Shown here: in pieces, positions 10,773 to 26,078 of the stretch
Position numbering within the stretch: the first letter of the stretch is position 1
How the letters are laid out: every line of letters starts with the position of its first letter
Virus record (IMG/VR): IMGVR_UViG_3300025828_003628
Location: 1-26,078 of that record
Source: a virus
Length of the DNA: 26,078 bases
Strand: one strand, 5' to 3'
Notes under the pieces: generated by a model
The model's input: the letters and a program-made list of their open reading frames with translations, nothing else
Databases searched by the model: none
Told to the model about the DNA's origin: nothing
Made by a program: the position numbers and the translations under genes

Positions 10773-12254
10773 ATGGAGTTACCAAAACTACAACCAGTAA
10801 CAGACAAGAAAAAACGAAAAATTTTATTGTTATCAGATGATTTAAGACTTCCATCTGGTATTGGAACTATATCACGTGAAATTGTGTTGAATACAGTTGA
10901 TGAATTTGATTGGGTTCAACTAGGTGCGGCACTAGAACATCCAGACCACGGAAAAGGAATTGATATATCACAGGAAGCTGTAAAAGAAACCGGTGTGCAA
11001 GATGCATCAGTTAAAATTATTCCGTGGACAGGTTATGGAGATCGCAACATATTAATGGCTCTTATCAACAACGAAAAGCCAGATGCTATTATGCACTTCA
11101 CAGATCCTAGATATTGGACGTGGCTGTATGCATTAGAACACGAAATTAAGAATACTTATAATATTCCTATTATATATTATTCAATTTGGGACGATCTTCC
11201 ATTTCCAATGTGGAATGCTCCATACTATGCAAGTTGCGATTTGATTATGGGTATTAGCAAACAATCACATAATATTCACAATGAAGTTCTCAACCAGAAC
11301 GGGTTTAAAACTATTAACCTAGATGAAGTATCACCTGACGCAGTTGTTGATAGCAAAACCATACTAACTAGTTTCGTCCCACATGGATTAAATCATCGAT
11401 TTTTCAAACCTTTGCCTGAAGATGACCAACAATATCAACAAATGTTTGCTGATATCAAAACGGTTAATGATGTAGACTTTTTAGTAATGTGGAACAACAG
11501 AAACATCAGAAGAAAACAACCAGGCGATGTTATCTTGGCATTCAAAGAGTTTCGTTCCAAACTACCAAAAGAAAAACAAGATAGAGTTGCACTATTAATG
11601 CACACTAATATATCAGATGCGAATGGAACCGATTTACGTGCTGTATGGAAGGCGGTTGCTCCAGAATGTAAAATTATATTCTCAGAGAAAAAACTAGCAA
11701 CAGATGCACTTAATGCCATGTATAACGTAGCAGATGTAGTGATTAATATAGCATCCAACGAAGGATGGGGTCTAAGTAGCACCGAAGCAATGTTATCAGG
11801 TACTCCGATTATCAACAATGTTACCGGAGGTCTTCAAGATCAATGTGGGTTCTTAGATGAAAGCGGAAAATGGATTCGATTCTCCGGAGAATTCACAAGC
11901 AACCATACCGGTAAATATGAAATACACGGCGAATGGGTAAAACCAGTATTTCCAGCTTCTCGATCGCTTCAAGGTTCGCCAGCAACACCATATATATTTG
12001 ATGATCGAGTAAAATTTACAGATGTAGCCGATGCAATCATGTATTGGTATGAGAAGTCAGCAGATAAAAGAAAAGAATGTGGCGAAGCTGGTAGAGAATT
12101 TTGTTTAGCTAATGGATTAACAGCAGAACAAATGGGACAGTCAATGAAACGTGATATTGCAAAGCTATTTGAATATAAACCAAATGTAGCAAACAGATAC
12201 ACTATTAAATCAGTTACGCCGAAACAATACGAAAATATAGGAATTACCCAATGA
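10773..12254 (+). CDS. GT-B fold glycosyltransferase (GT4-like), large
   Basis: This 493-residue cytoplasmic protein has the two lobes of a GT-B enzyme. The first begins KILLLSDDLRLPSGIGTISRE (residues 17-37), the acceptor-side glycine-rich start. The second carries WNNRNIRRKQPG near residue 241 and ASNEGWGLSSTEAMLSGTP (about 327-345), the E-x7-E donor-binding region of GT4. No membrane segment is seen. Arginine codons are about evenly CGN and AGA (10 of 19 CGN by my count), so it looks native to the phage, not part of the transferred-looking cassette that begins at about 14 kb. It is ATGA-coupled to a second GT-B gene, so the two may act in series on one acceptor. Donor and acceptor are unknown. 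Confidence 0.85.
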   Translation: MELPKLQPVTDKKKRKILLLSDDLRLPSGIGTISREIVLNTVDEFDWVQLGAALEHPDHGKGIDISQEAVKETGVQDASVKIIPWTGYGDRNILMALINNEKPDAIMHFTDPRYWTWLYALEHEIKNTYNIPIIYYSIWDDLPFPMWNAPYYASCDLIMGISKQSHNIHNEVLNQNGFKTINLDEVSPDAVVDSKTILTSFVPHGLNHRFFKPLPEDDQQYQQMFADIKTVNDVDFLVMWNNRNIRRKQPGDVILAFKEFRSKLPKEKQDRVALLMHTNISDANGTDLRAVWKAVAPECKIIFSEKKLATDALNAMYNVADVVINIASNEGWGLSSTEAMLSGTPIINNVTGGLQDQCGFLDESGKWIRFSGEFTSNHTGKYEIHGEWVKPVFPASRSLQGSPATPYIFDDRVKFTDVADAIMYWYEKSADKRKECGEAGREFCLANGLTAEQMGQSMKRDIAKLFEYKPNVANRYTIKSVTPKQYENIGITQ

Positions 12255-13525
12255 GAAAAGTAGTTATAGCATCACCAGTAGCAACACAATCGGGTTACGG
12301 ACACCATGCCCGCGAATTTATTACCAATGCAATGGAACTAATGAGCGAAGAGTGGGATATTAAATTGGTTTCGATGCCATGGGGTAACACTCCATTTACA
12401 TATCCACTGCCTATTCATTGGCAACAGGCAATGATTGGATTACCTTTAAAGGAACAGCCTGATGTTTGGGTTCAAATAACAGTACCAAATGAATTCCAAC
12501 CGGTAGGTAAATACAATATTGGAGTAACTGCAGGAACAGAAGGAGATACTTGCCCGAAAGAATGGATTGAAAGTATTAATCGCATGAATACGGTTGTGGT
12601 GCCAAGTGAATTCACCAAGCAAGTTTTTGAAGATACTGCAAAACAACACGGATTAACCATTACTTGCAAGTTGCAGGTAGTTTCTGAATATTATAGAAAA
12701 TCAGTGTATTCCACAGAAACAGAAAGTGCACAGAACCCAGCTCAAATATTACCAAGTCTCAACGATATACCAGAGTCATGGTGTTTTCTTTCAGTAGGAC
12801 ATTGGTTGTCTGGAGTATTAGGAGAAGATCGAAAAAATATATCCGGATTATTATACACGTTCTTTGATGCATATAAAAACAAAAAGAATGCACCTGCTTT
12901 GATACTAAAAACTAGCGGCGCAACCTATTCAGTATCAGACAGATTTGATATTGAGAATAAAATCAATCAAGTACAAGATTTGTTTGAGTCACATCGATTG
13001 CCAAATGTGTATATTGTGCACGGAGACTTAACTGACACGGAAATGAATGCGTTGTATAATCATCCTAAAGTTAAAGCAATGCTGTCATTCACAAAAGCAG
13101 AAGGATTTGGAAGACCACTTTTAGAATTTTCAACTACAGGTAAACCTATCATTGCTCCACATTATTCCGGCCAGAAAGATTTCTTGCATGAAGATTATGT
13201 ATGCCGATTAGCAGGAGGATTAACACCGATACATAAAACGGCTCAAAATCAATTTTTAATAGATGGAGCTAAATGGTTCACAGTTAATCCAAAACATGCA
13301 ATCCAGATGATGAAGGATGTTCAGAAGAACTACAAAAAATGGTCAGAGCTTGGTAAACGACAACGATACTATGTGAATCAGAATTTTGAAAAACAACATG
13401 TGCAAGAAACACAGTATAAAGCATTATTTGAAACAATTGCAAAAGATTTACAAGCAATACCACAACAAATAGAATTGAAACTTCCTAAACTAAATTTACC
13501 TAAACTGCAAAAGGTTGGAGAATAA
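12251..13525 (+). CDS. GT-B fold glycosyltransferase (GT4-like)
   Basis: This 424-residue protein begins KVVIASPVATQSGYGHHARE, a typical GT4 N-terminal strand and glycine loop, and has KAEGFGRPLLEFSTTGKPII (about residues 281-300), the E-x7-E donor site. SVGHWLSGVLGEDRKN in the middle fits the start of the second lobe. It is related in layout to the preceding gene and overlaps it by four bases, so they probably form an enzyme pair. The C-terminus ends in a short leucine/proline repeat, LKLPKLNLPKLQKVGE, which may be a docking tail. A gap with a promoter-like motif follows, so this is the last gene of its unit. Confidence 0.85.
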   Translation: MRKVVIASPVATQSGYGHHAREFITNAMELMSEEWDIKLVSMPWGNTPFTYPLPIHWQQAMIGLPLKEQPDVWVQITVPNEFQPVGKYNIGVTAGTEGDTCPKEWIESINRMNTVVVPSEFTKQVFEDTAKQHGLTITCKLQVVSEYYRKSVYSTETESAQNPAQILPSLNDIPESWCFLSVGHWLSGVLGEDRKNISGLLYTFFDAYKNKKNAPALILKTSGATYSVSDRFDIENKINQVQDLFESHRLPNVYIVHGDLTDTEMNALYNHPKVKAMLSFTKAEGFGRPLLEFSTTGKPIIAPHYSGQKDFLHEDYVCRLAGGLTPIHKTAQNQFLIDGAKWFTVNPKHAIQMMKDVQKNYKKWSELGKRQRYYVNQNFEKQHVQETQYKALFETIAKDLQAIPQQIELKLPKLNLPKLQKVGE

Positions 13526-13534
13526 CAAATTATT

Positions 13535-13555
13535 TCATATAATAAAGAAAAAGTT
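13535..13555 (+). promoter_or_regulatory. Putative phage promoter, TATAATAAAG motif
   Basis: The 30-base gap contains TCATATAATAAAGAAAAAGTT directly before the ATG at 13556. The AAAAAGTT ending matches the copy at 1661 and the TATAATAAAG core matches 10741-10751. It is the last such motif before the glycan cassette, so cassette transcription may begin here. Confidence 0.45.
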
Positions 13556-13762
13556 ATGAGAAGTAAACATCCTGGAGATATTTTGAATTGGTTGGAAAAA
13601 ATAATAAATTCGTGCACTGATGTACGACAATTATTTGTAGCGAAACGATGTGTAGCACATTTTGAAAAAACCTACCAACCCACAGATTCGTATTTATACG
13701 AAACATGGAGATTAAAGGATAGAGTACTTTACAAAATAGCTCAACTTCAACAAAGTAAATAA
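13556..13762 (+). CDS. Hypothetical protein, 68 aa
   Basis: I do not recognise this small, helix-rich, basic protein. It contains a central VRQLFVAKRCVAHFEKTY helix and a second amphipathic C-terminal helix. There is no membrane segment or metal site. Support comes from the promoter-like motif directly upstream and from the close spacing (six bases) to the next gene. Small helical proteins of this kind are common in early regions of large phages and usually have no known role. Confidence 0.65.
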   Translation: MRSKHPGDILNWLEKIINSCTDVRQLFVAKRCVAHFEKTYQPTDSYLYETWRLKDRVLYKIAQLQQSK

Positions 13763-13768
13763 ATTAAA

Positions 13769-14020
13769 ATGACAGAAAAAGAAATACAACTTCTAGGTTT
13801 TGAAAAACATGTTGAGGAAGATACTGAACATCCATTCTATTACTATACATTGGATATAGTAACTGGTTTAAGTTTCATCTCTAATTCAAGCGACGAAGTA
13901 AAAGAAGATGCTTTTGGATGGTATATTGAACTTTTTGACACTGAACCATCCATTATATACACAAACTTCGGAGATGCAATGGGTTTAATAAACAATCTCA
14001 CAAGACACATAGTAAAATGA
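13769..14020 (+). CDS. Hypothetical acidic protein, 83 aa
   Basis: The product is a small acidic alpha/beta protein: an N-terminal LLGFEKHVEE, a tyrosine-rich strand (FYYYTLDIVTG), GLSFISNSSDE, then FGWYIELFD and a C-terminal helix. It looks like a small phage protein family that I know only as unnamed, so no function is given. It starts after an A-rich leader and overlaps the first cassette glycosyltransferase by four bases (ATGA), linking the cassette to the phage transcription unit upstream. Confidence 0.65.
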   Translation: MTEKEIQLLGFEKHVEEDTEHPFYYYTLDIVTGLSFISNSSDEVKEDAFGWYIELFDTEPSIIYTNFGDAMGLINNLTRHIVK

Positions 14021-14646
14021 AAATAAGTTATGCAATAACAGTTTGCAATGAACGAGAAGAAATAGAACGTCTCATATCATTCCTCCTCAAACATAAACGA
14101 GATGAAGATGAGATTGTCATACTTGTTGACGAAACCAACAGTACTGGAACGGTTCAAGACTATGTTGAGATGATAGCACAAGAGTGTCTAGATCAAAACG
14201 TAACAAGATCATATCATCCATTACGAAACGACTTTGCTGCTCATAAGAATTATCTGAACTCTAAATGCACAGGAGATTATATCTTCCAAATCGATGCAGA
14301 CGAAATGATTACAGAATACATGTTACATACATTGCCTCTAATTTTAGAAAATAATCGAGTAGACATGATACGCGTACCTAGAATCAATACGGTTGTCGGA
14401 TTAACTGAAGAGCATATTAAGAAGTGGGGTTGGAGAGTTGATGAAAAAGGCAGAGTTAATTTTCCAGACTTTCAAACAAGAATCTATCGCAATGATGCAT
14501 CAATATCTTGGCAAGGCAAAGTGCACGAAAAGATTACAGGTTGTAAATTTGTTTCATATTTACCGCTTAATGATGAATATTGCTTGATACATCACAAAAC
14601 AATAGATAAACAAGAACAACAAAACGAATTTTATGATACGATATGA
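14017..14646 (+). CDS. GT2-family glycosyltransferase
   Basis: This 209-residue protein is a short GT-A fold transferase of the GT2 type. It begins ISYAITVCNEREEIERLISFLL, the usual nucleotide-sugar strand, and has the metal-binding DAD in FQIDADEM (about residues 92-99). The later FPDFQTRIYRN and ISWQGKVHEKI segments are typical of the subgroup related to lipopolysaccharide core transferases. It has no membrane anchor. It is coupled by ATGA overlaps on both sides and opens the eleven-gene cassette. Which sugar it moves is not visible. Confidence 0.85.
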   Translation: MKISYAITVCNEREEIERLISFLLKHKRDEDEIVILVDETNSTGTVQDYVEMIAQECLDQNVTRSYHPLRNDFAAHKNYLNSKCTGDYIFQIDADEMITEYMLHTLPLILENNRVDMIRVPRINTVVGLTEEHIKKWGWRVDEKGRVNFPDFQTRIYRNDASISWQGKVHEKITGCKFVSYLPLNDEYCLIHHKTIDKQEQQNEFYDTI

Positions 14647-15836
14647 AAACACCTAAAAACCCAATACAACTATTTAAAGTACATATGAGCCCAAATGCTA
14701 AAGAGGAGGTGGGCAAAGTATTAGATTCAGGATACATTGGACAAGGTCCAAAAGTAGATGAATTTGAAAATAATCTTAAAGAATACTTCAATAACGATTA
14801 CCTTTTAACCCTCAACTCAGGCACTTCGGGTCTACACCTAGCACTCCACCTACTTAAAAAACCTCAAACAGTTACCAAAAATTTCGAGAGTATAGCTTTT
14901 TGGGATGTCTATTGGCCTGGAATTGAAGAAGGAGATGAAATATTGGCAACTGCCCTAACATGCACAGCATCAAATTTCCCAATTTTAGCAAATGGTTTAA
15001 AAATAAAATGGGTTGATATAGACTCCACCACTCTAAATATGGACTTAGATGATCTCGAAAGAAAAATTACCCCAAAAACAAAAGCAATTATATTAGTTCA
15101 TTGGGGAGGGTATCCCAATGATCTCAATAGAATTCAAAAAATTCAAGAAAAATCCAAAAAATTATATGGATTCAAACCCGCTATCATAGAAGATGGAGCA
15201 CATTCATTTGGATCCAAATATCAGGGAAAATATTTGGGAAACCACGGAAACATAGTAATGTATAGCTTACAAGCTATTAAACATATTACTTCAATTGATG
15301 GAGGGGTATTATCATTGCCCCACCAAGAATTATATAATAGAGCTAAATTATTAAGATGGTATGGAATTGATAGAGAATCAAATAGAAAAGATTTTAGATG
15401 TGAAGCTGATATTGAAGAATGGGGGTTTAAATTTCATATGAATGATATTTGTGCTACTGTAGGAATTGAAAATCTTAAGCATGCTAATGAAATAATAAAA
15501 AAACATCAAGACAATGCTTCCTACTATGATAAGAACCTTCAAGGAATAGATAAGCTTACCCTACTAACCCGACATAAAGACAGAGAATCAGCATTTTGGA
15601 TATATAGTATGTTAGTTGAAGATAGAGATAAATTTATGGAACATATGAAAAACTGCAATATTGTTGTTTCTCAAGTCCATGAAAGAAATGATAAACATAC
15701 TTGTGTTAGAGAATACAAATCCTCCCTACCAACATTAGATAAAACCATAGATAAAATAGTTTCAATTCCTGTAGGCTGGTGGGTAACCGAGGAAGAAAGA
15801 GAATATATTGCTAACTGTATTAAAAAAGGATGGTAA
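14643..15836 (+). CDS. DegT/DnrJ/EryC1-family sugar aminotransferase
   Basis: The enzyme should be a PLP-dependent aminotransferase that converts a keto-sugar nucleotide to an amino sugar. Visible family features are NSGTSGLHLALHL (about residues 58-70, phosphate binding), EDGAHSFGSKYQGK (D184, pyridine nitrogen) and MYSLQAIKHITSIDGGVL, where K213 is the PLP lysine. The C-terminal NDICATVGIENLK helix also fits. A stretch of about 20 extra residues (roughly 72-93, VTKNFESIAFWDVYWPG) lies where most relatives go directly to GDEV; the family lysine and aspartate are intact, so it is probably active. Twelve of thirteen arginines use AGA, unlike the replication genes. The formyltransferase and the Gfo/Idh/MocA dehydrogenase in the same run could act before and after it. 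Confidence 0.93.
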   Translation: MKTPKNPIQLFKVHMSPNAKEEVGKVLDSGYIGQGPKVDEFENNLKEYFNNDYLLTLNSGTSGLHLALHLLKKPQTVTKNFESIAFWDVYWPGIEEGDEILATALTCTASNFPILANGLKIKWVDIDSTTLNMDLDDLERKITPKTKAIILVHWGGYPNDLNRIQKIQEKSKKLYGFKPAIIEDGAHSFGSKYQGKYLGNHGNIVMYSLQAIKHITSIDGGVLSLPHQELYNRAKLLRWYGIDRESNRKDFRCEADIEEWGFKFHMNDICATVGIENLKHANEIIKKHQDNASYYDKNLQGIDKLTLLTRHKDRESAFWIYSMLVEDRDKFMEHMKNCNIVVSQVHERNDKHTCVREYKSSLPTLDKTIDKIVSIPVGWWVTEEEREYIANCIKKGW

Positions 15837-15837
15837 T

Positions 15838-16398
15838 ATGAAATACATAAACCCTGACATAGAGTCATCTTACAAAGCAAATAATTTAGGTGAAACACTA
15901 TATAATTATGTAATAGAAAACAAACCTAAGAAAATTATTGAATTCGGAACTCTTTATGGATATTCAGCGGCCTGTATGGCTATGGCCTTAGATGAGTTAA
16001 ATAATGGTGGTAAAATCATATGTTATGATTTATGGGAAAAATATCCATATAAACATTCTATTATTGAAAAAACAAAACAAAATCTACAAAACTATAATAT
16101 ATCCCAATATGTAGAATTTAAAGAATTGAATTTTAAAGAATGGATACCTGAAGATTTTGATTTACTTCATGTAGATATTTCAAATGATGGTAATACTATT
16201 GTTGAATTAAGTATAAATTGTTTTAATCAATTAAAACAAGGAAAACATATTTTATTTGAAGGAGGAAGTATAGAACGTGATAATGTTGACTGGATGATAA
16301 AATACAACAAACAACCTATTAACACAATAAAATCTATAATTAATTATACTGTAATTGATAAAAAATTCCCCTCAATATCTAAACTAGAACTTAAATGA
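15838..16398 (+). CDS. SAM-dependent methyltransferase-like protein (class I)
   Basis: This 186-residue protein has a motif I-like KKIIEFGTLYGYSAACMA segment (about residues 29-46) and an acidic ICYDLWEK at the end of strand 2, where the SAM ribose is bound. FDLLHVDISNDG fits motif IV. It resembles the Methyltransf_24 and cephalosporin-hydroxylase-like group of small class I enzymes, which often sit in glycan clusters. The chosen start is the ATG at 15838, one base after the aminotransferase stop, with AAGGATGG upstream; an ATG at 15808 would overlap by 29 bases and is less likely. It may methylate a sugar, but the target is not shown. Confidence 0.75.
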   Translation: MKYINPDIESSYKANNLGETLYNYVIENKPKKIIEFGTLYGYSAACMAMALDELNNGGKIICYDLWEKYPYKHSIIEKTKQNLQNYNISQYVEFKELNFKEWIPEDFDLLHVDISNDGNTIVELSINCFNQLKQGKHILFEGGSIERDNVDWMIKYNKQPINTIKSIINYTVIDKKFPSISKLELK

Positions 16399-17162
16399 AA
16401 AAATTAGCAATAGTAGCATCAGGGTGGCATTTTCCTTATAGTTTTTATAAGTCCATATCAACTCAACTTCTCCCAGAAAATTGGAAAATGGATTTATTTT
16501 GTATATCCCACAGAAACCCTTTATTTTCAGCTGAAGAAAAATCAAACATAACTTTAGAAGGAGAAAGAGCTTATTTAGATTTAAAGTTATATAGTAATAT
16601 TGCTTCTATAGGAGATATTAAAAATTTAGGTTGGTATTATAAAGAATATCCTAACACTATAGGAGATTGGGGATGCTCAAATCAATGGTTGGAAGAAAAT
16701 AATTATAATAATTATGATTTAATTTTATTTACACATGATGATAATTTAATATTATCTGAAAATTGGTTTTTAGATATTATAAAAGATAGTGAATCTAATG
16801 ATTGGGAAATCCTTTCAAATAGTTGTGGAGCACCATCAGGTTGGTTAAGAGGATCTTGTGAATTTTTTAAACCTAACCTTCTTAATAAGATAGGAGGAAA
16901 ATTTGACCTATCATTAGTAACATTAAATCGAACTGATAAACTATATGGCTCACAAGATATAGCAGAATTATCAAATTGGAATAATACTGTAATACCTTTA
17001 ATGAATTTTATTAGGAATAACAACATTAAAGTAAAATATTTATCTAATTTTTATAGGGTATCTAAATACTGTTTAGAAGGAGAACGTGGATTTATTTCAA
17101 AAACCACACATACTAATACTCGAAGTGAAAATGAAGGACTTAAACATTTAAATTTAATATGA
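16395..17162 (+). CDS. GT-A-like glycosyltransferase
   Basis: The 255-residue protein looks like a GT-A type transferase. It has an N-terminal strand (KKLAIVASGWHFPYSFY), a DLILFTHDDNLIL segment (about residues 109-121) with the HDDN that corresponds to the DXD metal motif, and a later NSCGAPSGWLRGSCEFF region. No membrane helix is visible. The DNA is very AT-rich here (the 60 bases from 16741 have ten G or C), and more so than the replication genes. It is coupled to both neighbours by ATGA. The subfamily cannot be named from sequence alone. Confidence 0.65.
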   Translation: MKKLAIVASGWHFPYSFYKSISTQLLPENWKMDLFCISHRNPLFSAEEKSNITLEGERAYLDLKLYSNIASIGDIKNLGWYYKEYPNTIGDWGCSNQWLEENNYNNYDLILFTHDDNLILSENWFLDIIKDSESNDWEILSNSCGAPSGWLRGSCEFFKPNLLNKIGGKFDLSLVTLNRTDKLYGSQDIAELSNWNNTVIPLMNFIRNNNIKVKYLSNFYRVSKYCLEGERGFISKTTHTNTRSENEGLKHLNLI

Positions 17163-17845
17163 AAAAAGATTTCTTAGTTTTAACTTGCACTTTAGGGGAA
17201 AAAGACATAATAAAAGATCCCCCAACACCATTTGAATCATGTGATTATATTGCAATAGTTGATAAAGATCATGATGTAAAAATTTGGCAACAGTTTGGAT
17301 ATTATAATTTTTCATCAATTGATAATTATACGCATAGGAGAAATGCAAAATTATATAAAGTACTATCTTCAATGTTATTTTCAGAATATAAATACATCAT
17401 ATGGCATGATGCTAATCATCAATTGATACAAGATCCAATTGATATTATAAAAGAATATGGAGAACATGATTTTTATTTATTGAAACATCCTTTGCGTAAT
17501 TGTTTATACGACGAAATGAATATAATTTCAGGATATTTAGATTCTGCAGATATTATAAAACAACAGCGTGAATATTATATAAAATGCGGGTTTCCTAAAA
17601 ATTATGGATTATTTGCTATGGGTAATCACATGAAACGTGTAAATAATAAAACTACAATATTAGGACTAAAATGGTGGGAACAGATAACTAGATTTAGTTC
17701 GAGAGACCAATGCAGTTTTGCATATTGTTTATGGGACATGAAAAACAATAATCAAGAAATAGATTTTATAACACTTAATGCACCATTAGAAAATACATTA
17801 GTATTAAACAAATACTTTATAGACTATGGTACTAGATTAAAATAA
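17159..17845 (+). CDS. DUF616 (TOD1/MUCI70)-like glycosyltransferase
   Basis: This 228-residue protein matches the DUF616 family, whose plant members are glycosyltransferase-like. Landmarks are RRNAKLYKVLSSMLFSEY followed by KYIIWHDANHQL (about residues 60-91), the histidine-rich FYLLKHPLRNCLYDEM, and RFSSRDQCSFAYCLWD near residue 178. In the family these are the RxxK helix, the DXD-like WxDAN motif, the HxxRxxxYxE motif and the RDQxSFxY motif, all present in order. Bacterial members are often found in surface-polysaccharide loci, which fits this cassette. The gene starts in a four-base overlap and ends ten bases before the next. Confidence 0.8.
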   Translation: MKKDFLVLTCTLGEKDIIKDPPTPFESCDYIAIVDKDHDVKIWQQFGYYNFSSIDNYTHRRNAKLYKVLSSMLFSEYKYIIWHDANHQLIQDPIDIIKEYGEHDFYLLKHPLRNCLYDEMNIISGYLDSADIIKQQREYYIKCGFPKNYGLFAMGNHMKRVNNKTTILGLKWWEQITRFSSRDQCSFAYCLWDMKNNNQEIDFITLNAPLENTLVLNKYFIDYGTRLK

Positions 17846-17855
17846 AAATTACATT

Positions 17856-18563
17856 ATGAAAAAATTAACTATAAATATACCTACTTTAAACAGTCATGAA
17901 ATTGTAAAATCACAAATTACTAGATTTCAAAATATTTTGAAAAATTATAAAAATGACGTAGATGTATTAATAATTGATGATGGTAGTACTCCATCACTAA
18001 TAGATTACCTTAAAGAACATAAAATCAATTTTATTAAACATGACAAAACTGAAAACAATTTAGATGTTTGGAAATTAGATAATATTTTTATTATAGAAAC
18101 AAAAAATTATACAAATTGGACTCAAGCAATTGCATCCAATATTGGTGTTCGATATGCTAATAGTGATTATGTATATAACACTGCTATCGATCATTTTATA
18201 ACTTTAGAAAACATACAAGAAGTTTTAAATTTTAATGGAGACTGTCTAAAATTTCCAAGAAAATATGGAGTAATTCAAGAAAATGGTAATGTTAGTACTG
18301 ATATTGAATTATTAAAAAAGCATCATTATGATGGAGGTAATGTTAATGTTGCTTGGGACATATACTCAATGAAACGAAACTTATTTTTAAATATTAATGG
18401 ATACAACGAAGAAAAATTTGGTGATTATTGGGCCGTAGATATAGATTTTTTTACTAGATATAAAAATCAAGGTAACAGTGTCGACATTGCAAATAATCAT
18501 ATTTTCGTGTATCCAGAACCAGATAAAAATACTGAAATATTTCATAATTTAAAGAGAAGTTAA
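17856..18563 (+). CDS. GT2-family glycosyltransferase
   Basis: The protein is a 235-residue GT2 enzyme. It opens KLTINIPTLNSHEIV and has VLIIDDGSTPS (about residues 37-48), the UDP-sugar binding turn. NSDYVYNTAIDHFIT lies where the DXD is expected. NGYNEEKFGDYWAVDIDFFTRY (about residues 179-200) matches the acceptor-side helix with its ED/D residues. There is no membrane segment. It starts ten bases after the previous gene with an A-rich leader, and its stop shares one base with the next start (TAATG). Confidence 0.85.
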   Translation: MKKLTINIPTLNSHEIVKSQITRFQNILKNYKNDVDVLIIDDGSTPSLIDYLKEHKINFIKHDKTENNLDVWKLDNIFIIETKNYTNWTQAIASNIGVRYANSDYVYNTAIDHFITLENIQEVLNFNGDCLKFPRKYGVIQENGNVSTDIELLKKHHYDGGNVNVAWDIYSMKRNLFLNINGYNEEKFGDYWAVDIDFFTRYKNQGNSVDIANNHIFVYPEPDKNTEIFHNLKRS

Positions 18564-19249
18564 TGAATATAGGAATATTTACATATAATTTTCCACATTG
18601 GAAAACGCAAGAAGGATTACATAACTTATTCTTACATGGATATAAACCTCAAGTAATACTTGCAGCAAACCCAGTTAAATTAAATTTTTATCAATCAAAA
18701 ATAAGAATTGCTCCGAAAGATTTATTTTTGCAACATCCTATAGATTTAGCAAAACGTTATGACATAGATTATCATGTTGTTGAACATAATTCTGAACGTA
18801 CAGCTAATATTGTTAAACAATATAACTTAGATTTAGGAATTATATTAGGCGCACGGATATTAAAACCTATAGCATTTGAAAATTTTAATATTGGAGTTTT
18901 AAATATGCACCCGGGTATACTTCCAGAAAATCGAGGATTAGATAATGTTAAATGGGCTATTATAAATGGACATGCCCAAGGCGTAACAACACATTTAATT
19001 GATAGTAAAATAGACCGTGGAGTCATGATAGAACAAGAAACAATTGATATATATCATGATGATACTTTAATGGATATGCATATACGTATTCAACATTTAG
19101 AACAAAAACTAATGATATCATCAATTGAAAAAGTAAAAAACGGAAAAATGGGAAATAAGTTAGAACAGGGTAATTATTATAAATCTGTTCCCGAAGATAT
19201 TGAGCAAACTCTTTTAACTAAATTAAAGCAATATAAAAATGAAATATAA
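18563..19249 (+). CDS. Sugar N-formyltransferase (Fmt-like fold)
   Basis: The protein should transfer a formyl group from 10-formyltetrahydrofolate to an amino group. The catalytic triad of the methionyl-tRNA formyltransferase fold is visible: N114 and H116 in GVLNMHPGILPENRG and D151 in HLIDSKIDRG, with WAIINGH between. It is 228 residues and lacks the C-terminal domain that Fmt uses to bind tRNA, as is usual for sugar formyltransferases such as those that make N-formylated amino sugars of O-antigens. Neighbouring aminotransferase and dehydrogenase genes support a sugar substrate; which amino position is modified is unknown. It overlaps the dehydrogenase gene by 11 bases. Confidence 0.85.
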   Translation: MNIGIFTYNFPHWKTQEGLHNLFLHGYKPQVILAANPVKLNFYQSKIRIAPKDLFLQHPIDLAKRYDIDYHVVEHNSERTANIVKQYNLDLGIILGARILKPIAFENFNIGVLNMHPGILPENRGLDNVKWAIINGHAQGVTTHLIDSKIDRGVMIEQETIDIYHDDTLMDMHIRIQHLEQKLMISSIEKVKNGKMGNKLEQGNYYKSVPEDIEQTLLTKLKQYKNEI

Positions 19250-20270
19250 AGTAGGTATTATAGGTTGCGGAGCTATACTTCCTAGACATCTTGAATCAAT
19301 TGAAGCAAATGATAATTTTGAATTAGTAGCGATTTGTGATATTCAAGAAATATTAGTAACAAGCATATCAAAAAGATTAAATATTAAATCATACACTGAT
19401 TATAAGGATATGATATGTAGTGGAGAGGTTGATTTTGTGGTAGTAGCTACACCAAATTCTTTACACGTTGAGCAAGCAGTATTTGCCTTACAAAATAAAT
19501 GTGATGTTTTAATAGAAAAACCTGTAGCTTTTTCTTTAAAAGAAATTGAATTTATTAATAGCATTTCTCAAAAGACAAAACAAAATGCATATTGTGTGTT
19601 ACAAGTTAGATTAAATCCAACAGTTCAATTGTTAAAAGAAATATTAGCCGAAAATTTATTAGATGAAATTAGAGGTGTTACCTTAATCCAGCGTTGGCAA
19701 AGACCATTAGAATACTTTACAGGATGGCGTGCTGAACCAAATGTTGGAGGAGGGACTTTATATGAATGTGGTATTCATTATTTGGATGTATTACAATACC
19801 TTTTTGGGAGGCCTACAGTTATTGGTTCAAAAACATATGAAATAAAACATAAAAATATAGGGATTGAAGATACAATATATTCAATATTTGATTTTGGAAA
19901 TTTTGGGGGAACTTGTGAAGTAACCATTGCCGCTGAACCACAAAATCTAGAATGTTCCATTTCAGTAATGGGTGCTAATGGGTATATTAAGTTAGGAGGC
20001 AAAGCTCTTAACATAGTTGAATCAGCTAAATTTTTATCACATGGAAGTCAAATAGAATTTAATAAATTGCAAAAGAAATATAACATATCTATACAACCTA
20101 ATTCATACGGGTCATATCAAGGGTCATGTCCTAATCACCCATATGTTTATCAAAATTTAGAGCAATTTTCTTTATCTCAAACAAACAATGTTATAAGTTT
20201 AATTGATGATATATATTCAAAGTCAGGAATAAAGTATAGAAAAAAAATAATTAATGAAAATAATATATAG
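19239..20270 (+). CDS. Gfo/Idh/MocA-family sugar dehydrogenase (WlbA/WbpB-like)
   Basis: This NAD(P)-dependent enzyme has the Rossmann start YKVGIIGCGAILPRHLE (residues 3-19), VVVATPNSLH, the catalytic lysine in IEKPVA (K94) and ECGIHYLDVLQYLFG (H179, D182), all in the expected order. The segment VGGGTLYECGIHYLD is reminiscent of WlbA/WbpB, which oxidise UDP-GlcNAc uronate at C3 ahead of a DegT-type aminotransferase. That pairing is inference; the family also includes many other sugar dehydrogenases. The length of 343 residues is normal. Only two of nine arginines use CGN. The gene overlaps the formyltransferase by 11 bases and the following gene by 17. Confidence 0.9.
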   Translation: MKYKVGIIGCGAILPRHLESIEANDNFELVAICDIQEILVTSISKRLNIKSYTDYKDMICSGEVDFVVVATPNSLHVEQAVFALQNKCDVLIEKPVAFSLKEIEFINSISQKTKQNAYCVLQVRLNPTVQLLKEILAENLLDEIRGVTLIQRWQRPLEYFTGWRAEPNVGGGTLYECGIHYLDVLQYLFGRPTVIGSKTYEIKHKNIGIEDTIYSIFDFGNFGGTCEVTIAAEPQNLECSISVMGANGYIKLGGKALNIVESAKFLSHGSQIEFNKLQKKYNISIQPNSYGSYQGSCPNHPYVYQNLEQFSLSQTNNVISLIDDIYSKSGIKYRKKIINENNI

Positions 20271-20952
20271 AATATCAGATGCGGGTTATAATAAAATAAA
20301 ACCAGAATATATCAACAACGAATTATGTTTAAAAAACTTTTGTAATGTTTTCTTTGATCATATTTATGACATTCATATTATAGCTGATAATTGTAGTGAC
20401 GATACTAAGAAAATGATCAAAAAGTATATCGATCCACATAATATAGATATAGTATCAGTGGGTCATGGTGCTGGAACATTCAATTTAGCACTAGACAGAG
20501 CTTTAACTTACAATGATGATGACATAGTTTATTTTATAGAAAATGATTACTTGCATAAACCAGAATCAGTAAAAATACTAAAAGAAGGATTTGAATTAGG
20601 AGCTTCATTTGTAGCACTATATGACCATCCTGACAAATACCTTGACCCAAGCAAAGGAGGTAATCCGTATTGTGTTGGGGGGGCTGAAGACACAAGAGTT
20701 TATTTGACTGATAGTTGCCATTGGAAAATAACCAATAGCACGACTATGACATTTTCATCAAAAATATCCACACTAAAACGAGTAGAACCCATATTGAGAA
20801 AACATACCGCGGGAACTCATCCAAATGATTTCCAAATGTTTTTAGAATTGAGACAACAAGGAGAACTATTAATAACGCCGATACCAGGTTATGCAACACA
20901 CGGAGAAACTGCTTGGTTATCACCTTTAACAGATTGGGAGGCATACTTATGA
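20254..20952 (+). CDS. GT-A-like glycosyltransferase
   Basis: The 232-residue product starts KIIYRISDAGYNKIKPEYINN, continues with IHIIADNCSDDT and has DDDIVYFIENDYLHK (about residues 88-102), where END takes the place of the DXD motif. A C-terminal RKHTAGTHPNDFQMFLELRQQG and PGYATHGE segment resembles phage and bacterial relatives of unknown acceptor. It starts 17 bases inside the dehydrogenase gene and overlaps the next by four bases. No membrane segment. I would call it a glycosyltransferase on pattern and context, but the subfamily is not clear. Confidence 0.65.
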   Translation: MKIIYRISDAGYNKIKPEYINNELCLKNFCNVFFDHIYDIHIIADNCSDDTKKMIKKYIDPHNIDIVSVGHGAGTFNLALDRALTYNDDDIVYFIENDYLHKPESVKILKEGFELGASFVALYDHPDKYLDPSKGGNPYCVGGAEDTRVYLTDSCHWKITNSTTMTFSSKISTLKRVEPILRKHTAGTHPNDFQMFLELRQQGELLITPIPGYATHGETAWLSPLTDWEAYL

Positions 20953-21659
20953 ATAAACAAGAAAAATTAAATCAATTAGAAAATAAATTAATATTAGATA
21001 TTAATAATAAATCATACTATGAAGACTTTGATCATGAAATCTATGGTAATACATTGGAGCCTGGTTCAATGCCCGCTCCATATTTTTATGATTGGGTAGC
21101 TAATGAAACATCGAATAGATTAAATAATCAGCCAGTATTAGGGATCGAAGTGGGTAGTTTTTTAGGGTATTCTGCAATAGGATTTGCTAAAAAATTAAAA
21201 GAAACAGCTCCAGGATCTAAATTAATATGTATTGATACATGGTTAGGTAGTCCGGAGCACTATAGATTTTTAAAACGAGATGGCGATAATAGACTAGGAT
21301 GGAAAAATGGCTATCCAACCATGTATCATAAATTCATATCGAATGTAATTTATAATGATTTACAAGATGTTATTATACCATTAGCATTTCCTTCAACGAT
21401 AGCATTTAAAGTTTTAAAGTCTTTGTTTGATGAAATTGATATTAAAGCAGATTTTGCTTACATCGATGGTTCTCATGAAGAACACGAAGTTTATATGGAT
21501 TTGTATTATTACTACCAACTTTTATCCACAGATTCTTATTTATGTGGAGATGATTGGGCTTGGGAGTCTGTTAGAAATGATGTTACTAAATTCGGCCGGG
21601 AACATGATTTGAAGGTTAATGTTCATCAAAATCAAGTACATTGGAATATTATAAAATGA
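20949..21659 (+). CDS. SAM-dependent methyltransferase (Methyltransf_24-like)
   Basis: The protein has a well-formed class I methyltransferase core: VLGIEVGSFLGYSAIGFAKKL (about residues 54-74, motif I), KLICIDTWLG (strand 2 acidic) and ADFAYIDGSHEEHEVYMDL (about residues 164-182, the Methyltransf_24 DGSH signature), then LSTDSYLCGDDW. The target is probably a small molecule or sugar. The ATG at 20949 sits in an ATGA overlap with the previous stop and gives a start at MNKQEK; an in-frame ATG at 20913 lies deep inside the upstream gene and is less likely. It differs from the shorter enzyme at 15838 but shares its motif I style, so the two may act on the same glycan. Confidence 0.85.
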   Translation: MNKQEKLNQLENKLILDINNKSYYEDFDHEIYGNTLEPGSMPAPYFYDWVANETSNRLNNQPVLGIEVGSFLGYSAIGFAKKLKETAPGSKLICIDTWLGSPEHYRFLKRDGDNRLGWKNGYPTMYHKFISNVIYNDLQDVIIPLAFPSTIAFKVLKSLFDEIDIKADFAYIDGSHEEHEVYMDLYYYYQLLSTDSYLCGDDWAWESVRNDVTKFGREHDLKVNVHQNQVHWNIIK

Positions 21660-22438
21660 TATCAGTAATAATACCAACATATAAATCACCAGATATGCTT
21701 GATCTATGTTTACGGTCAGCTATCAAAGGACAACAACACAAAAATCAAATCATAGTTGTGGTTGATGGGTTCTATGACCTTAATAAAGAGGTATTAGAAA
21801 AATGGGAAGAACATATCAACATTCTTAATTTAGAGGAAAATGTAGGCTTGTGCCGGGGAACTAACCTAGGAGTATACAATGCAAAGTATAATAAAATACT
21901 AATAGTTAATGATGATAATGTTTTCCCAAAAGATTGGGATGCAATATTAGAAGAAGAATGGGAACTTTATCAAGAATTGAATAAAAAAGTAGTAATCTCT
22001 CCAAATCAAATAGAACCTTATCCTTCAATGTTTAAACAATTCGTACATAAAGATTTAGGGAAGAATGTGGGTGAGTTTGATTTGAACAAGTTTTGGGAAT
22101 ATGAAGCCCTTTTATCGGGAGCATCCCCAACTCGAAATGACGAAACCGGATCCACACTCCCAATTTTTATGAGTAAAGTAGACTACCTTCGTTTAGGTGG
22201 ATGGGATGAAAATTATGAAATGGGAATGGTAGCGGATTGGGATTTCTTCTTAAAATGTCAATTATCGGGATTAAAAATGATTAGAAGTTATAGATGTAAT
22301 TTTTACCACTTTGCCTCGGCTTCAACAAATGGAGAAAAAAGACAAATAGCAGAAAGAAATGGACATGCTTACGCACAATATAAATGGGGTTCACCTATAA
22401 TGCACGAACCTAATACAAACAAAAAATATTTAATCTGA
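21656..22438 (+). CDS. GT2-family glycosyltransferase
   Basis: This 260-residue GT2 enzyme opens ISVIIPTYKSPDMLDLCLRS and has IIVVVDGFYD, NVGLCRGTNLGVY and ILIVNDDNVFP (about residues 79-90), where NDDN is the DXD metal motif. LRLGGWDENYEMGMVADWDFFLK (about residues 178-200) is the acceptor-side region with the conserved D-W-D. The chosen ATG at 21656 overlaps the methyltransferase stop (ATGA); an upstream in-frame ATG at 21641 would overlap by 19 bases. It is the last cassette gene; a 56-base gap with a promoter-like motif and a short palindrome follows before the lysis genes. Confidence 0.9.
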   Translation: MISVIIPTYKSPDMLDLCLRSAIKGQQHKNQIIVVVDGFYDLNKEVLEKWEEHINILNLEENVGLCRGTNLGVYNAKYNKILIVNDDNVFPKDWDAILEEEWELYQELNKKVVISPNQIEPYPSMFKQFVHKDLGKNVGEFDLNKFWEYEALLSGASPTRNDETGSTLPIFMSKVDYLRLGGWDENYEMGMVADWDFFLKCQLSGLKMIRSYRCNFYHFASASTNGEKRQIAERNGHAYAQYKWGSPIMHEPNTNKKYLI

Positions 22439-22494: not shown

Positions 22495-22785
22495 ATGAAA
22501 TTTTTTCGAGATATTTTAACTGAAATCAACAACAAGACAAATTCCAGAGAATGGTCACAAGGTCGTGTATATTTAATGATTTCGGTTATTGCATATTATG
22601 CTGTATTAACAGTGTTGACAGTAGCAGGAATGCACCGAGACAACAACGTAGACTTAAATAAATTCCGAATCGTTATAGATGCATTGGAATTCGCAATGGT
22701 TCTGTTTGGTGGATATGTGTTTGGCGGTAAAATTGTCAGTGTATTCAACGCAATCAAATCACCAGAAAAGGAATCTGAAAAATGA
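22495..22785 (+). CDS. Small two-helix membrane protein, holin candidate
   Basis: This 96-residue protein has a charged N-terminus, a first hydrophobic helix at about residues 25-45 (LMISVIAYYAVLTVLTVAGM), a short polar loop and a second at about 59-84 (with AMVLFGGYVFGGKIVSVF), then a charged tail KSPEKESEK. That layout fits a class II type holin, and its four-base overlap with the amidase gene fits a lysis pair. Holins have little sequence identity, so the call rests on topology, size and position. It could equally be another small membrane protein. A putative promoter directly upstream suggests it starts the lysis transcript. Confidence 0.6.
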   Translation: MKFFRDILTEINNKTNSREWSQGRVYLMISVIAYYAVLTVLTVAGMHRDNNVDLNKFRIVIDALEFAMVLFGGYVFGGKIVSVFNAIKSPEKESEK

Positions 22786-23660
22786 TTATTCGAAAAGGAA
22801 GCAGAGGATCGCAAGTTAAACTAATCCAGGAATTCCTAGAAATTTCTGCAGATGGTATTTTTGGAAGCGGTACCGAAGCAGCAGTCAAAGCATGGCAATC
22901 TGAAAATGGATTAACTGCCGATGGTATTGTTGGTCCTAACACATGGGATGCAATGGGATTGGCAACTACTGACAATTCAGAACAAATTGTTAGCCATGGC
23001 GATTTAAAAATTATTCCGAACTTTCTTCCAGCTGGAGAATACAAAGCAGGACCAACTCGTAAAGAATATGCATTTTTACATCACACCGCAGGTTGGAATA
23101 ATCCATATAACACGATTCATGGTTGGGCTAAAGACAGTAGAGGAGCGGTTGGAACAGAGTTTGTGTTAGGAGGTCAAAAAATTGATACTGGTGATGATAC
23201 CTATGATGGTGTATTACTCCAAGCTATTCCAGAAGGCGGATATGGTTGGCATCTAGGAAAGAATGGATCACAACATATGCATACACATTCGGTTGGAATA
23301 GAAGTGTGTAACTTCGGATGGCTGAAAGACGGAAAAACATATGTAGGCACCAGAGCCATCCCTTCACAGATTGTTACTCTAAAAGAACCATTCAGAGGAT
23401 TCCGAGAGTGGCATAGATATTCAGATACTCAAATAGAACAAATGAGAAAATGGATCCTGTTTATTGCAGAACGAGATTCAATCAACATAAGAGAAGGCTT
23501 GCCTCAATGGGTTCGAGAAAAAGGCGCAAAAGGTTTCGAATTCAACTCAGACGCATATTACGGACGAGTGAAAGGGTTATTAACACACACTAATACTAGA
23601 AAAGACAAATGGGACTTGTTCCCTCAACCTGAACTTTTAGATATGTTAATGGGACTATGA
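22782..23660 (+). CDS. Endolysin: peptidoglycan-binding domain plus N-acetylmuramoyl-L-alanine amidase
   Basis: The protein cuts the amide bond between MurNAc and the stem peptide. Residues about 4-60 form a PG_binding_1 domain (VKLIQEFLEISADGIFGSGT, then AVKAWQSENGLTADGIVGPNTW). After a linker, residues about 90-285 form an Amidase_2 domain: FLHHTAG carries a zinc histidine (H100 or H101), QHMHTHSVGIEV is the middle strand, and LTHTNTRKDKWDLFPQP holds the other histidine (H270) and the catalytic lysine region. There is no signal peptide, so export would depend on a holin, which the preceding gene may provide. Binding domain first and catalytic domain second is a recurring order in endolysins of phages of Gram-negative hosts. 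Confidence 0.95.
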   Translation: MIIRKGSRGSQVKLIQEFLEISADGIFGSGTEAAVKAWQSENGLTADGIVGPNTWDAMGLATTDNSEQIVSHGDLKIIPNFLPAGEYKAGPTRKEYAFLHHTAGWNNPYNTIHGWAKDSRGAVGTEFVLGGQKIDTGDDTYDGVLLQAIPEGGYGWHLGKNGSQHMHTHSVGIEVCNFGWLKDGKTYVGTRAIPSQIVTLKEPFRGFREWHRYSDTQIEQMRKWILFIAERDSINIREGLPQWVREKGAKGFEFNSDAYYGRVKGLLTHTNTRKDKWDLFPQPELLDMLMGL

Positions 23661-23746
23661 AACGAATGAAATCTACAAATGTTCGAAAAGGTAAAATGGA
23701 TTGTTATCCACATCCTAGGTTAGTTAAAATACTAGAAAATTTATGA
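23657..23746 (+). CDS. Tiny basic ORF, 29 aa
   Basis: A 29-codon ORF, starting MKRMKSTNVRKGKMDC and ending PRLVKILENL, fills the whole gap between amidase and histidine kinase. Its ATG overlaps the amidase stop and its own stop overlaps the kinase start, both as ATGA. The peptide is strongly basic in its first half and includes one cysteine and HPRLVK. I do not recognise it. The double coupling is good evidence for translation, but it could also be a leader that only helps ribosomes reach the kinase start. Confidence 0.5.
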   Translation: MKRMKSTNVRKGKMDCYPHPRLVKILENL

Positions 23747-24987
23747 TACGGTTAGACGCAAAGACAATAACAGCAATTGCATTAGCAGTAGTAATAATGC
23801 TATCATTCTTTGTGGTTAAAACTTTAGTAATGGTTGATTGGATTGAATATACTCTGATGGTAAAATGGTATGAATATTTATCTGTTATAGGATTTATGCC
23901 TCCATTCTTTTATGCAATGAGTAAAATATACCGTATTCAATACCTAGAAACACTTAAAAAACGAACCCTCGAATCTATACTAGATGAATCATGCCTAGTA
24001 TCCCGTACAGATAAACATGGACTAATTACAGATGTTAATAACAAGTTCTGTGAAGTATCTGGATATAAACGGCAAGAACTTTTAGGTAAAGATCATCGAG
24101 TATTAAATTCTGGTACACATCCACGTGCATTATGGACTCAGATGTATGAAACAACTATCAAATACAAATCGATATGGCATGAGATTGTAACGAATCGAAA
24201 GAAAGATGGTGATTTATATATCGTAGATTCACATATAATGGCTACGTTTGATGCCGCTGGTAGACACTCAGGCTTTATTTCTGTGCGGCAAGATATCACT
24301 CAGCTAATGAATTCTTTGCAAGAGGTCGATCGAAAAAACGCTTACCTCGAACATGCAGCTAAAATTTTAAGACATGATATGCATTCCGGAATCAATACGT
24401 ACATTCCACGGGGTATATCTTCGCTTGAAAGGCGCTTAAATAAAATGGTGTGTGATAAAGAATTGAAGAGTATTGATGCACCGATGAAGATGTTGAAAGA
24501 AGGATTAGCGCATGCACAGAAGGTGTATAATGGGGTTAAGGAGTTTACTAATCTTGTGAAAAAAGATGCAGTGATGGAAAGACAGTCTCACAACCTCAAA
24601 TGTATAATTGATGCCTATCTCAAATCAACATCTTACAAAAGTAATGTAGTTGTTGATGATATGGGAGAGGAGATGGTAAATGAATCACTCTTCTGTACAG
24701 CTATTGATAATTTGATACGTAATGGATTACGATATAATGATAACGATACTAAGTATGTAAAGATATATAGAGAATCAAATAAAATTATTGTGGAAGATAA
24801 TGGTAGGGGAATGTCTCAAGAAGATTTTGAGGAATTATCTAAACCATATACACGTAAAACAGGACAAAAAGAGCCGGGTTCTGGATTAGGTTTAAACATA
24901 TGCATAGCCATCATGAAAGAACACGGATTCGAAGTTACATGCGAGAAATTAGAGACAGGAACAAAATTAAAAGTAAAGGTATCGTAA
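23743..24987 (+). CDS. Membrane-anchored PAS-domain sensor histidine kinase
   Basis: This 414-residue protein is a two-component sensor. Two hydrophobic helices at about residues 8-30 and 44-60 anchor it, leaving almost no periplasmic domain, so sensing is probably within the membrane or cytoplasm. A PAS domain spans about 80-187, with LVSRTDKHGLITDVNN and FCEVSGYKRQELLGK, then HSGFISVRQDIT, a PAS/PAC layout. The phosphoacceptor is H211 in LRHDMHSGINTY. The catalytic domain shows the N box (IDNLIRNGLRYN, N323 and N327), G1 (EDNGRGM, 351-357), F box (FEELSKPYTR) and G2 (GSGLGL, 379-384). All key residues are intact. It is coupled directly to a response regulator, and lies after the phage lysis genes. 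Phages rarely carry complete histidine kinases. Confidence 0.95.
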   Translation: MIRLDAKTITAIALAVVIMLSFFVVKTLVMVDWIEYTLMVKWYEYLSVIGFMPPFFYAMSKIYRIQYLETLKKRTLESILDESCLVSRTDKHGLITDVNNKFCEVSGYKRQELLGKDHRVLNSGTHPRALWTQMYETTIKYKSIWHEIVTNRKKDGDLYIVDSHIMATFDAAGRHSGFISVRQDITQLMNSLQEVDRKNAYLEHAAKILRHDMHSGINTYIPRGISSLERRLNKMVCDKELKSIDAPMKMLKEGLAHAQKVYNGVKEFTNLVKKDAVMERQSHNLKCIIDAYLKSTSYKSNVVVDDMGEEMVNESLFCTAIDNLIRNGLRYNDNDTKYVKIYRESNKIIVEDNGRGMSQEDFEELSKPYTRKTGQKEPGSGLGLNICIAIMKEHGFEVTCEKLETGTKLKVKVS

Positions 24988-25424
24988 TGATAGAGTCAAT
25001 CATGTTAGTAGATGATGAAGATCTATTTCATTTAGTGTTTGAAGATGCATGTAGCTTGTTAGACATTACATTGTCACTACAGGCACTGAGTAGTGCAGAT
25101 GAAGCTGGAAAATTATTTAAAAAGTGGTTTGAAAACGGACCTATAGAAGAAAGACCAGAGTGTGTGTTTGTTGATTTAAACATCATTGGATCTACATTTG
25201 ATGGAATTGAATTAGTTAGACGTATTAACTTTGAATATGGAGACAATGTTGTTATTGGTATTATATCTTCAAGCAACGAAGTTTCAGAGCAAGCAAAGGC
25301 AGTACAAGCAGGAGCTCAATTCTGGATAGTTAAATCAGATGAAATTGAACCTAGGTTAGAAGAATTCTTGCAAGACTACGAAGGATATAAAACAAAGTCT
25401 GCTCCTTTTAAAGTTTATAAATGA
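24987..25424 (+). CDS. Single-domain response regulator (CheY-like receiver)
   Basis: The ATG at 24987 is within TAATG at the kinase stop, giving a 145-residue protein; an upstream in-frame ATG at 24900 would add an implausible tail inside the kinase gene. The receiver residues are all present: D9/D10 in MLVDDED, the phosphoacceptor D63 in VFVDLNI, S94/S95 in GIISSS and K116 in IVKSD. No DNA-binding or enzyme output domain follows; only a short C-terminal tail is left. It should therefore act by protein contact, as CheY or Spo0F do, or pass phosphate on. The next coupled gene encodes a membrane coiled-coil protein that is the obvious candidate partner. Confidence 0.95.
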   Translation: MIESIMLVDDEDLFHLVFEDACSLLDITLSLQALSSADEAGKLFKKWFENGPIEERPECVFVDLNIIGSTFDGIELVRRINFEYGDNVVIGIISSSNEVSEQAKAVQAGAQFWIVKSDEIEPRLEEFLQDYEGYKTKSAPFKVYK

Positions 25425-25981
25425 AAAAAATAAAGTTACATAACGAAACAGTAAAGCAGTTATTAGAATTAAAAAAAAGTCGAAGAGTTACATTAGAAGG
25501 CAACCTTTTAAAACTGATAGATGCAGAGCATGATGCTGAGTTTAACAAGTATCTGCAGGATGCTATTGAAGAAGGCAAAACTAAGCAAAGACAACGTTTA
25601 GACATTACTAAAAAAATACAAACTCAGAACAAAGAGTTATTAGAATCGCAACAAGAAAAAGATAAATTAATGAGTCAATTGGAATCTGCATTGACTCAAG
25701 CCGAATCAGCAAAAAACGAAGCATTAAATGATTTGGATGTGTTGCAACGAAAAACTCAATTTAAACTCATACAAACCATAGTACGGATTGCATTGGCAAT
25801 AATCATTGGAGTGGGTGTATGCACTACGGTATTATACATATACTCAATGACTCTAGATCGAGATACTGAATTGATTGGAAATACCTGGAGCAACATGTTC
25901 GGCATCCTGCTAACTAATGCTTTTAGTATCATAGGTACTATAATGGGTGTTAAATATGCCAGCAAAGACTCTGCAGACTGA
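25421..25981 (+). CDS. Coiled-coil membrane protein with two transmembrane helices, possible output of the two-component system
   Basis: The 186-residue protein is charged and helical to about residue 112, with a heptad-like stretch (KKIQTQNKELLESQQEKDKL, then MSQLESALTQAESAKNEALN) that should form a coiled coil. Two hydrophobic helices follow, at about 118-142 (with LAIIIGVGVCTTVLYIY) and 155-178 (FGILLTNAFSIIGTIMGV), then a short polar tail. I know no name for the family. It begins in an ATGA overlap with the response regulator, so the three are made together. A cytoplasmic coiled coil plus membrane pair could change conformation on binding phosphorylated regulator, or bind other membrane proteins; this is inference. 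Confidence 0.75.
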   Translation: MKKIKLHNETVKQLLELKKSRRVTLEGNLLKLIDAEHDAEFNKYLQDAIEEGKTKQRQRLDITKKIQTQNKELLESQQEKDKLMSQLESALTQAESAKNEALNDLDVLQRKTQFKLIQTIVRIALAIIIGVGVCTTVLYIYSMTLDRDTELIGNTWSNMFGILLTNAFSIIGTIMGVKYASKDSAD

Positions 25982-26015: not shown

Positions 26016-26078
26016 ATGAATTTCAAAGTAATATTTAGTGCATTCTTAATGTTTGCACTCGGCCAAGCTATTGTTTGG
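26016..26078 (+). CDS. Membrane or secreted protein, 3'-truncated by the window edge
   Basis: Only 21 residues are inside the window, reading MNFKVIFSAFLMFALGQAIVW. They form one hydrophobic stretch after a lysine, which could be a signal peptide or the first transmembrane helix. It is separated from the signalling operon by an AT-rich gap. Family and function cannot be told from this fragment. Confidence 0.45.
   Translation, partial: MNFKVIFSAFLMFALGQAIVW

Follow-up and report, generated by a model that had tools for sequence, protein, structure and literature searches.

The stretch of viral DNA analysed here (the window) comprises 26,078 nt, positions 1 to 26,078 of the IMG/VR phage record IMGVR_UViG_3300025828_003628 (G000), and carries a cassette of three tightly packed genes on the plus strand: a sensor histidine kinase of 414 aa (HK, 23743..24987), a single-domain response regulator of 145 aa (RR, 24987..25424) and a membrane coiled-coil protein of 186 aa (CC, 25421..25981). 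HK and RR are coupled by the sequence TAATG at 24985-24989, and RR and CC by ATGA at 25421-25424. An earlier interpretation made from the letters and translations (the sequence-only reading) had described a two-component operon with these same couplings, and the kinase-regulator pair is indeed intact, but the unit consists of three genes, with CC as a member. The cassette adjoins an endolysin gene (22782..23660, plus strand) with peptidoglycan-binding and amidase domains (Pfam PG_binding_1, 1.6e-15, and Amidase_2, 8.7e-8; PHROG endolysins), as had been stated, but a 29-codon open reading frame (23657..23746, plus strand) that overlaps the end of the endolysin gene and the beginning of HK had been left out. 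This small frame probably serves just as a spacer that couples the two genes; it is absent from L008 (loci are numbered with the prefix L), the closest relative that does not belong to the lineage of the window, where endolysin and HK overlap directly by 4 nt.

The Pfam models HATPase_c (7.6e-15; 24688..24978) and PAS_9 (6.1e-11) match HK, while the HisKA model was not detected. The catalytic boxes are in place at the positions first proposed, with the phosphoacceptor H211 in an RHDMHS box (24373..24375), N323/N327 in the N box, D352-G356 in G1 and G379-G383 in G2. Among 70 relatives H211 never varies and the box residues never or hardly ever do, and RHD[M/L]HS is found in all complete kinases of the cassette family. 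An AlphaFold2 model (predicted local distance difference test score, pLDDT, 88.7) shows two N-terminal membrane helices, a PAS domain, a two-helix phosphoacceptor domain and an ATPase domain; the predicted dimerisation and phosphoacceptor helices span residues 186-235 and 241-270, and Foldseek matches the model to PAS-histidine kinases, including HK853 and ThkA (best 8e-20). By the tests of sequence and fold, HK is a two-component sensor histidine kinase, and it is predicted to autophosphorylate.

The PAS domain of HK (23977..24306) is of the flavin adenine dinucleotide (FAD) type. Its best matches in the PDB include MmoS (3ewk, 2.6e-25), Aer (8dik, 3.9e-16) and NifL (2gj3, 4.5e-11), and the AlphaFold2 model superposes on 3ewk with a root-mean-square deviation of 1.3 and 42% identity. 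HK residues H118, N151 and R182 align with H53, N85 and R115, the flavin contacts of Aer (PMC9668731). Because the domain is closest to MmoS, Aer and NifL and keeps the flavin-contact residues, our best guess is that it is a flavin-binding redox or energy sensor at the membrane. The sequence-only reading had offered redox, oxygen, energy state or envelope stress as inputs, and for the window's sensor a redox or energy signal is likely, but the proposal does not extend to the family: a triad of this type is present in 41 of 101 PAS domains, 55 are of a second type (HRA), and the sensor part varies from membrane segments only to one or two PAS domains, GAF plus PAS, or an extracytoplasmic region. 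Since the sensor differs among loci, there is no single signal for the whole family. At a number of loci, two tandem kinases with the same core and different sensors precede one RR (L013, L067, L072, L073, L079, L117 and L131, and further L139, L144, L156-L158 and L162), which suggests that two signals can feed one output.

RR is matched by Pfam Response_reg (3.8e-8) and has a receiver fold in which D9/D10, D63 (25173-25175), S94/S95 and K116 are invariant in 46-54 relatives, in agreement with the residues first pointed out. Of three PDB matches to the RR profile, two are designed proteins and uninformative. RR has no output domain, so that its signal is most likely passed on by protein contact.

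The third gene had been read as coding for a coiled-coil membrane protein, and AlphaFold2 and hydropathy both agree. The CC model has short N-terminal helices, a single helix of about 106 residues (39-144) and a second helix (150-184), with membrane segments at aa 120-138 and 159-177. An N-terminal 'LEGN' domain with the motif xLEGNILKxI runs into the start of the coiled coil (together 25421..25720), and the protein ends in a two-helix membrane hairpin (25778..25951) that probably has both of its ends in the cytoplasm. Conservation in CC peaks in the second hairpin helix, which has the nearly invariant sequence GILLTNxFSIIGTIMGVKYA. No convincing match to known families, including holin families, was found in Pfam, PHROG and other family searches, and the one match in BFVD is an uncharacterised protein of an uncultured phage (45% identity).

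The same HK-RR-CC cassette is carried by hundreds of uncultivated T4-like phages. Scanning IMG/VR with RR gave 88 relatives, of which the 80 that were fetched are 65-100% identical, while scans with alignments of CC and HK confirmed at least 484 and at least 550 relatives, respectively, in viral contigs. The gene order was recovered from each bait gene separately. Beside RR, both HK and CC are found in 91 of 94 distinct loci each, and of the 79 loci seeded with HK, 74 have the full set; of the other five, most or all adjoin a contig end or a tandem kinase. Gene coupling also recurs, in that the RR and CC frames share 4 or 1 nt in 70 distinct loci and the HK/RR gap is mostly -8 to +14 nt; extra genes separate RR and CC in a few loci. 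Pairwise distances are correlated among the HK core, RR and CC (Mantel r 0.49-0.63, 0/999 permutations), and all three genes are under purifying selection, with non-synonymous polymorphism (pN) far below synonymous (pS). Absence of the pair from relatives had been named as grounds for giving up the sequence-only reading, and the opposite was found, the pair and CC being present nearly everywhere that any of the parts occur. The view that full kinase-regulator pairs are rare in phages needs dividing: neither RR nor CC has a match in the 50,697 INPHARED records, which are dominated by isolates (HK gives generic matches only), but among uncultivated T4-like phages the pair is common.

The window is a fragment without a capsid gene and carries a T4-type replisome (a B-family polymerase, clamp-loader subunits and a PD-(D/E)XK nuclease, by Pfam and PHROG), and a T4 gp23-type capsid gene is present in 12 of the 15 large carriers. 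Since it is a phage record, the pair lies within a phage genome, as proposed, and a bacterial or chimeric contig, the other ground named for abandoning that proposal, can be rejected. By polymerase, the nearest cultured relative is Microcystis phage Mel-JY01 (47%), and the order of polymerase, clamp loader, nuclease and glycosyltransferases is common to both. The cassette was not found in the syntenic region of Mel-JY01 that was read, and a GH19 endolysin-like gene stands at the corresponding place. Matches to the T4 late promoter TATAAATA number 6 in the window against 5.95 expected by chance, so these counts give no evidence for T4 late promoters.

Shine-Dalgarno sites are scarce in many carriers (5/28 in the window, compared with 2/36 in Flavobacterium phage immuto), while a minority have 40-60% and cyanophage and pelagiphage controls 32-45%. 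The gp23 of carriers shows affinity to that of immuto. Given the few Shine-Dalgarno sites, the gp23 affinity and the chromosomal relatives described below, Bacteroidota are likely hosts for most carriers, with other hosts likely for some.

Cellular relatives of the cassette are very rare: across 84,980 species of bacteria and archaea there were three loci, one of them on a phage-like contig. The HK-RR pair occurs on two contigs of Bacteroidota metagenome-assembled genomes, L088 and L089, and none was found in 395 further genomes of that phylum (1/396, the one being the query's own). The chromosomal pairs group inside the phage tree, which is unrooted and so fits transfer in either direction between phage and Bacteroidota. 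L089 is flanked on both sides by bacterial genes and has the same HK core and RR, followed by a gene (L089:8041-9090) in which CC positions 1-109 are joined to a HisKA/HATPase kinase where CC would have its hairpin. Because L089 keeps this N-terminal module in its third gene, behind the HK core and RR that it shares with the cassette, the module is the best candidate for the part of CC at which RR docks and delivers its signal. In L088 (5032-7998), the PAS-kinase is split in two frames, through either a frameshift or an assembly error, and near-identical PAS repeats precede the break.

The sequence-only reading suggested looking for the pair beside lysis genes, and it does recur there above chance. 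Of peptidoglycan enzymes of four unrelated catalytic types (GH19, GH24, amidase and M15), 35 lie no further than 2 kb from the cassette and 3 at 2-6 kb, a density of 1.15 versus 0.08 per 10 kb (14 times), and 34 of the 35 share the cassette strand. Genes of the Phage_holin_4_1 family occur at nine loci, all within 2 kb. The lysis seed families in this count were picked from conserved cassette neighbours, and for this reason Pfam models were also run over 15 whole large contigs, where 5 of 18 lysis-domain matches lie within 2 kb against about 0.4 expected (hand arithmetic). In the window itself, the gene directly before the endolysin (22495..22785, plus strand) codes for a 96-aa protein with two membrane helices by hydropathy; it has no match in Pfam, PHROG or NCBIfam and is a candidate holin by its position. 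A separate family of 203 aa (L015:1315-1926 and 13 other loci) lies near GH19 and holin genes; it has no Pfam model and matches the endolysin PHROG phrog_33083 (4e-12), and its H...SAGC motif recalls L,D-transpeptidase folds.

We propose that the cassette is a phage-owned pathway which senses the state of the host, relays it to CC and thereby adjusts lysis or an equivalent late-infection decision at the membrane. HK would monitor the infected cell, in the window probably its redox or energy state via a flavin-bound PAS domain at the membrane, autophosphorylate on H211 and pass the phosphate to D63 of RR. Phosphorylated RR would then most likely bind the N-terminal domain of CC, and CC would relay the change along its coiled coil to the conserved hairpin in the inner membrane. 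The likeliest outcome would be that the time of lysis, or a similar late membrane decision, is tuned to host state. Control of lysis or another late membrane event is our best guess, and we give the proposal about an even chance; lysis timing as the specific purpose, which the sequence-only reading had raised, is plausible but unproven.

Several points weigh against this proposal. In roughly two thirds of loci no lysis enzyme was recognised within 2 kb, which also limits the expectation that the pair stands beside lysis genes, and this holds for most of the larger Shine-Dalgarno-using phages; in five of these (L067, L072, L078, L085 and L086) the cassette is surrounded by structural or internal-head-like genes. 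The enrichment p-values are optimistic, because related loci do not count as independent, and figures such as the 14-fold density show association rather than its exact strength. The fold of CC has no significant structural match in the PDB, and the contact between RR and CC is a predicted one. With a second holin candidate at 22495-22785, CC need not be the lysis trigger in the window.

In a more specific form of the idea, CC would itself be a holin or antiholin, its hairpin opened or held shut by phosphorylated RR, and lysis would be timed through interchangeable redox or energy sensors as a purpose-built alternative to the RI/RIII lysis inhibition of T4. We regard this as a tentative possibility, less likely than not. 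Like class II holins and antiholins, CC has a two-helix hairpin and is often encoded near endolysins; it differs from them in its long cytoplasmic coiled coil and N-terminal domain, and matches no holin family.

Alternatively, HK and RR might reprogram the host by acting on its phosphorelays, as a source or sink of phosphate or by occupying host kinases and regulators, with CC only a tether and lysis not the target. Receiver-only regulators in bacteria often are phosphorelay intermediates or act by protein contact, the nearest chromosomal system (L089) ends in a second kinase, and the majority of loci are not beside lysis genes. Phage proteins acting on host two-component systems are also known, such as PIT4 of phage LSL4 (PMC10714779). 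Against this, the second helix of CC is conserved beyond what a simple anchor would need, and the three genes form a closed set in which presence and variation go together; close chromosomal relatives are so rare that no conserved host partner stands out. We judge this explanation unlikely.

Distinctly improbable is a device against superinfection or competitors, in which the damage that a second phage does to the membrane or redox state is sensed and CC blocks or aborts its infection. A membrane effector with exchangeable sensors does resemble the logic of defence systems, and PADLOC reports a weak match of CC to LeoBC (E 0.0017), which is probably a coiled-coil artefact, but HK and RR have no real PADLOC match, the cassette is kept as a unit across the lineage rather than being mobile, lysis genes are often close by, and its observed neighbours include no other defence genes. 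By its PADLOC result the cassette was rejected as a known anti-phage defence system. That the pair was picked up from a host and has no phage role, or that the contig is chimeric or bacterial, is largely refuted and very hard to credit, since the two Bacteroidota contigs with the pair and a single positive in 396 genomes of their phylum stand against hundreds of viral relatives of HK and CC, purifying selection and the gp23 genes of the large carriers.

Other neighbours of the cassette are less constant. At the window end, the start of a gene for a 115-aa four-helix membrane protein is cut off (26016..26078, plus strand). This family (GQxIVWxQxNGPxIWP; L002:8274-8621) is found next to the cassette at about 20 loci, whether the phage is poor in Shine-Dalgarno sites or uses them, and has no PHROG match; it was rejected as a fixed fourth cassette gene, being frequent and not universal. 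In L002, the window's nearest relative, it is directly followed by a gene for a 699-aa protein (L002:8658-10757), also without a PHROG match. Upstream, at 10773-22438, the window has a long run of glycosyltransferase, methyltransferase, aminotransferase and oxidoreductase-like genes that probably serves sugar modification, and a similar run is found at the same place in Mel-JY01. In L067, L072, L073, L078, L079 and L085, many unrelated neighbours of the cassette, HAD phosphatases included, start with MKITRRQLRQLIxE or close variants. This start resembles a tag for capsid targeting that carries a cleavage site of the T4 gp21 type (L/I-x-E) and, if it is one, would mark a large set of packaged internal proteins.

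The cassette is real, functional-looking and widespread, and consists of known parts in a combination that we did not find described in the open-access PubMed Central literature, where we also found no report of a complete, phage-owned sensor-kinase pathway kept as a conserved unit. If our proposal is correct, many uncultivated T4-like phages gauge the condition of their host and act at the membrane via a previously undescribed effector, the lysis decision of lytic phages can be put to the test where sensor, relay and output are all known, and phages swap sensors to suit hosts and environments, as bacteria do.

Several known systems resemble parts of the cassette. Among solved structures, the FAD-PAS domains of MmoS, Aer and NifL are most like that of HK, in which flavin binding is predicted; it differs from them in belonging to a phage kinase whose phosphoacceptor region is different, and less than half of the family's PAS domains are of this type. 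Bacterial systems with single-domain regulators (CheY-, Spo0F- and DivK-like) share an H/N/G1/G2 kinase and a DD/D/S/K receiver with no DNA-binding output, whereas the cassette has no Pfam HisKA, a fixed RHDMHSGIN core, swappable sensors and a near-constant CC, and is phage-borne. L088 and L089 share the HK core and RR with it, but L088 lacks CC, the third gene of L089 has the N-terminal domain of CC and ends in a kinase rather than a hairpin, and both are extremely rare. The nearest report found is the agr locus (AgrD-AgrB-AgrC) of the Clostridium difficile phage phiCDHM1 (PMC3901668), where the genome of a phage likewise encodes a histidine kinase close to an endolysin gene. It has no response regulator, serves peptide quorum sensing and belongs to a single phage type, whereas the cassette provides a full kinase, regulator and proposed effector in hundreds of phages.

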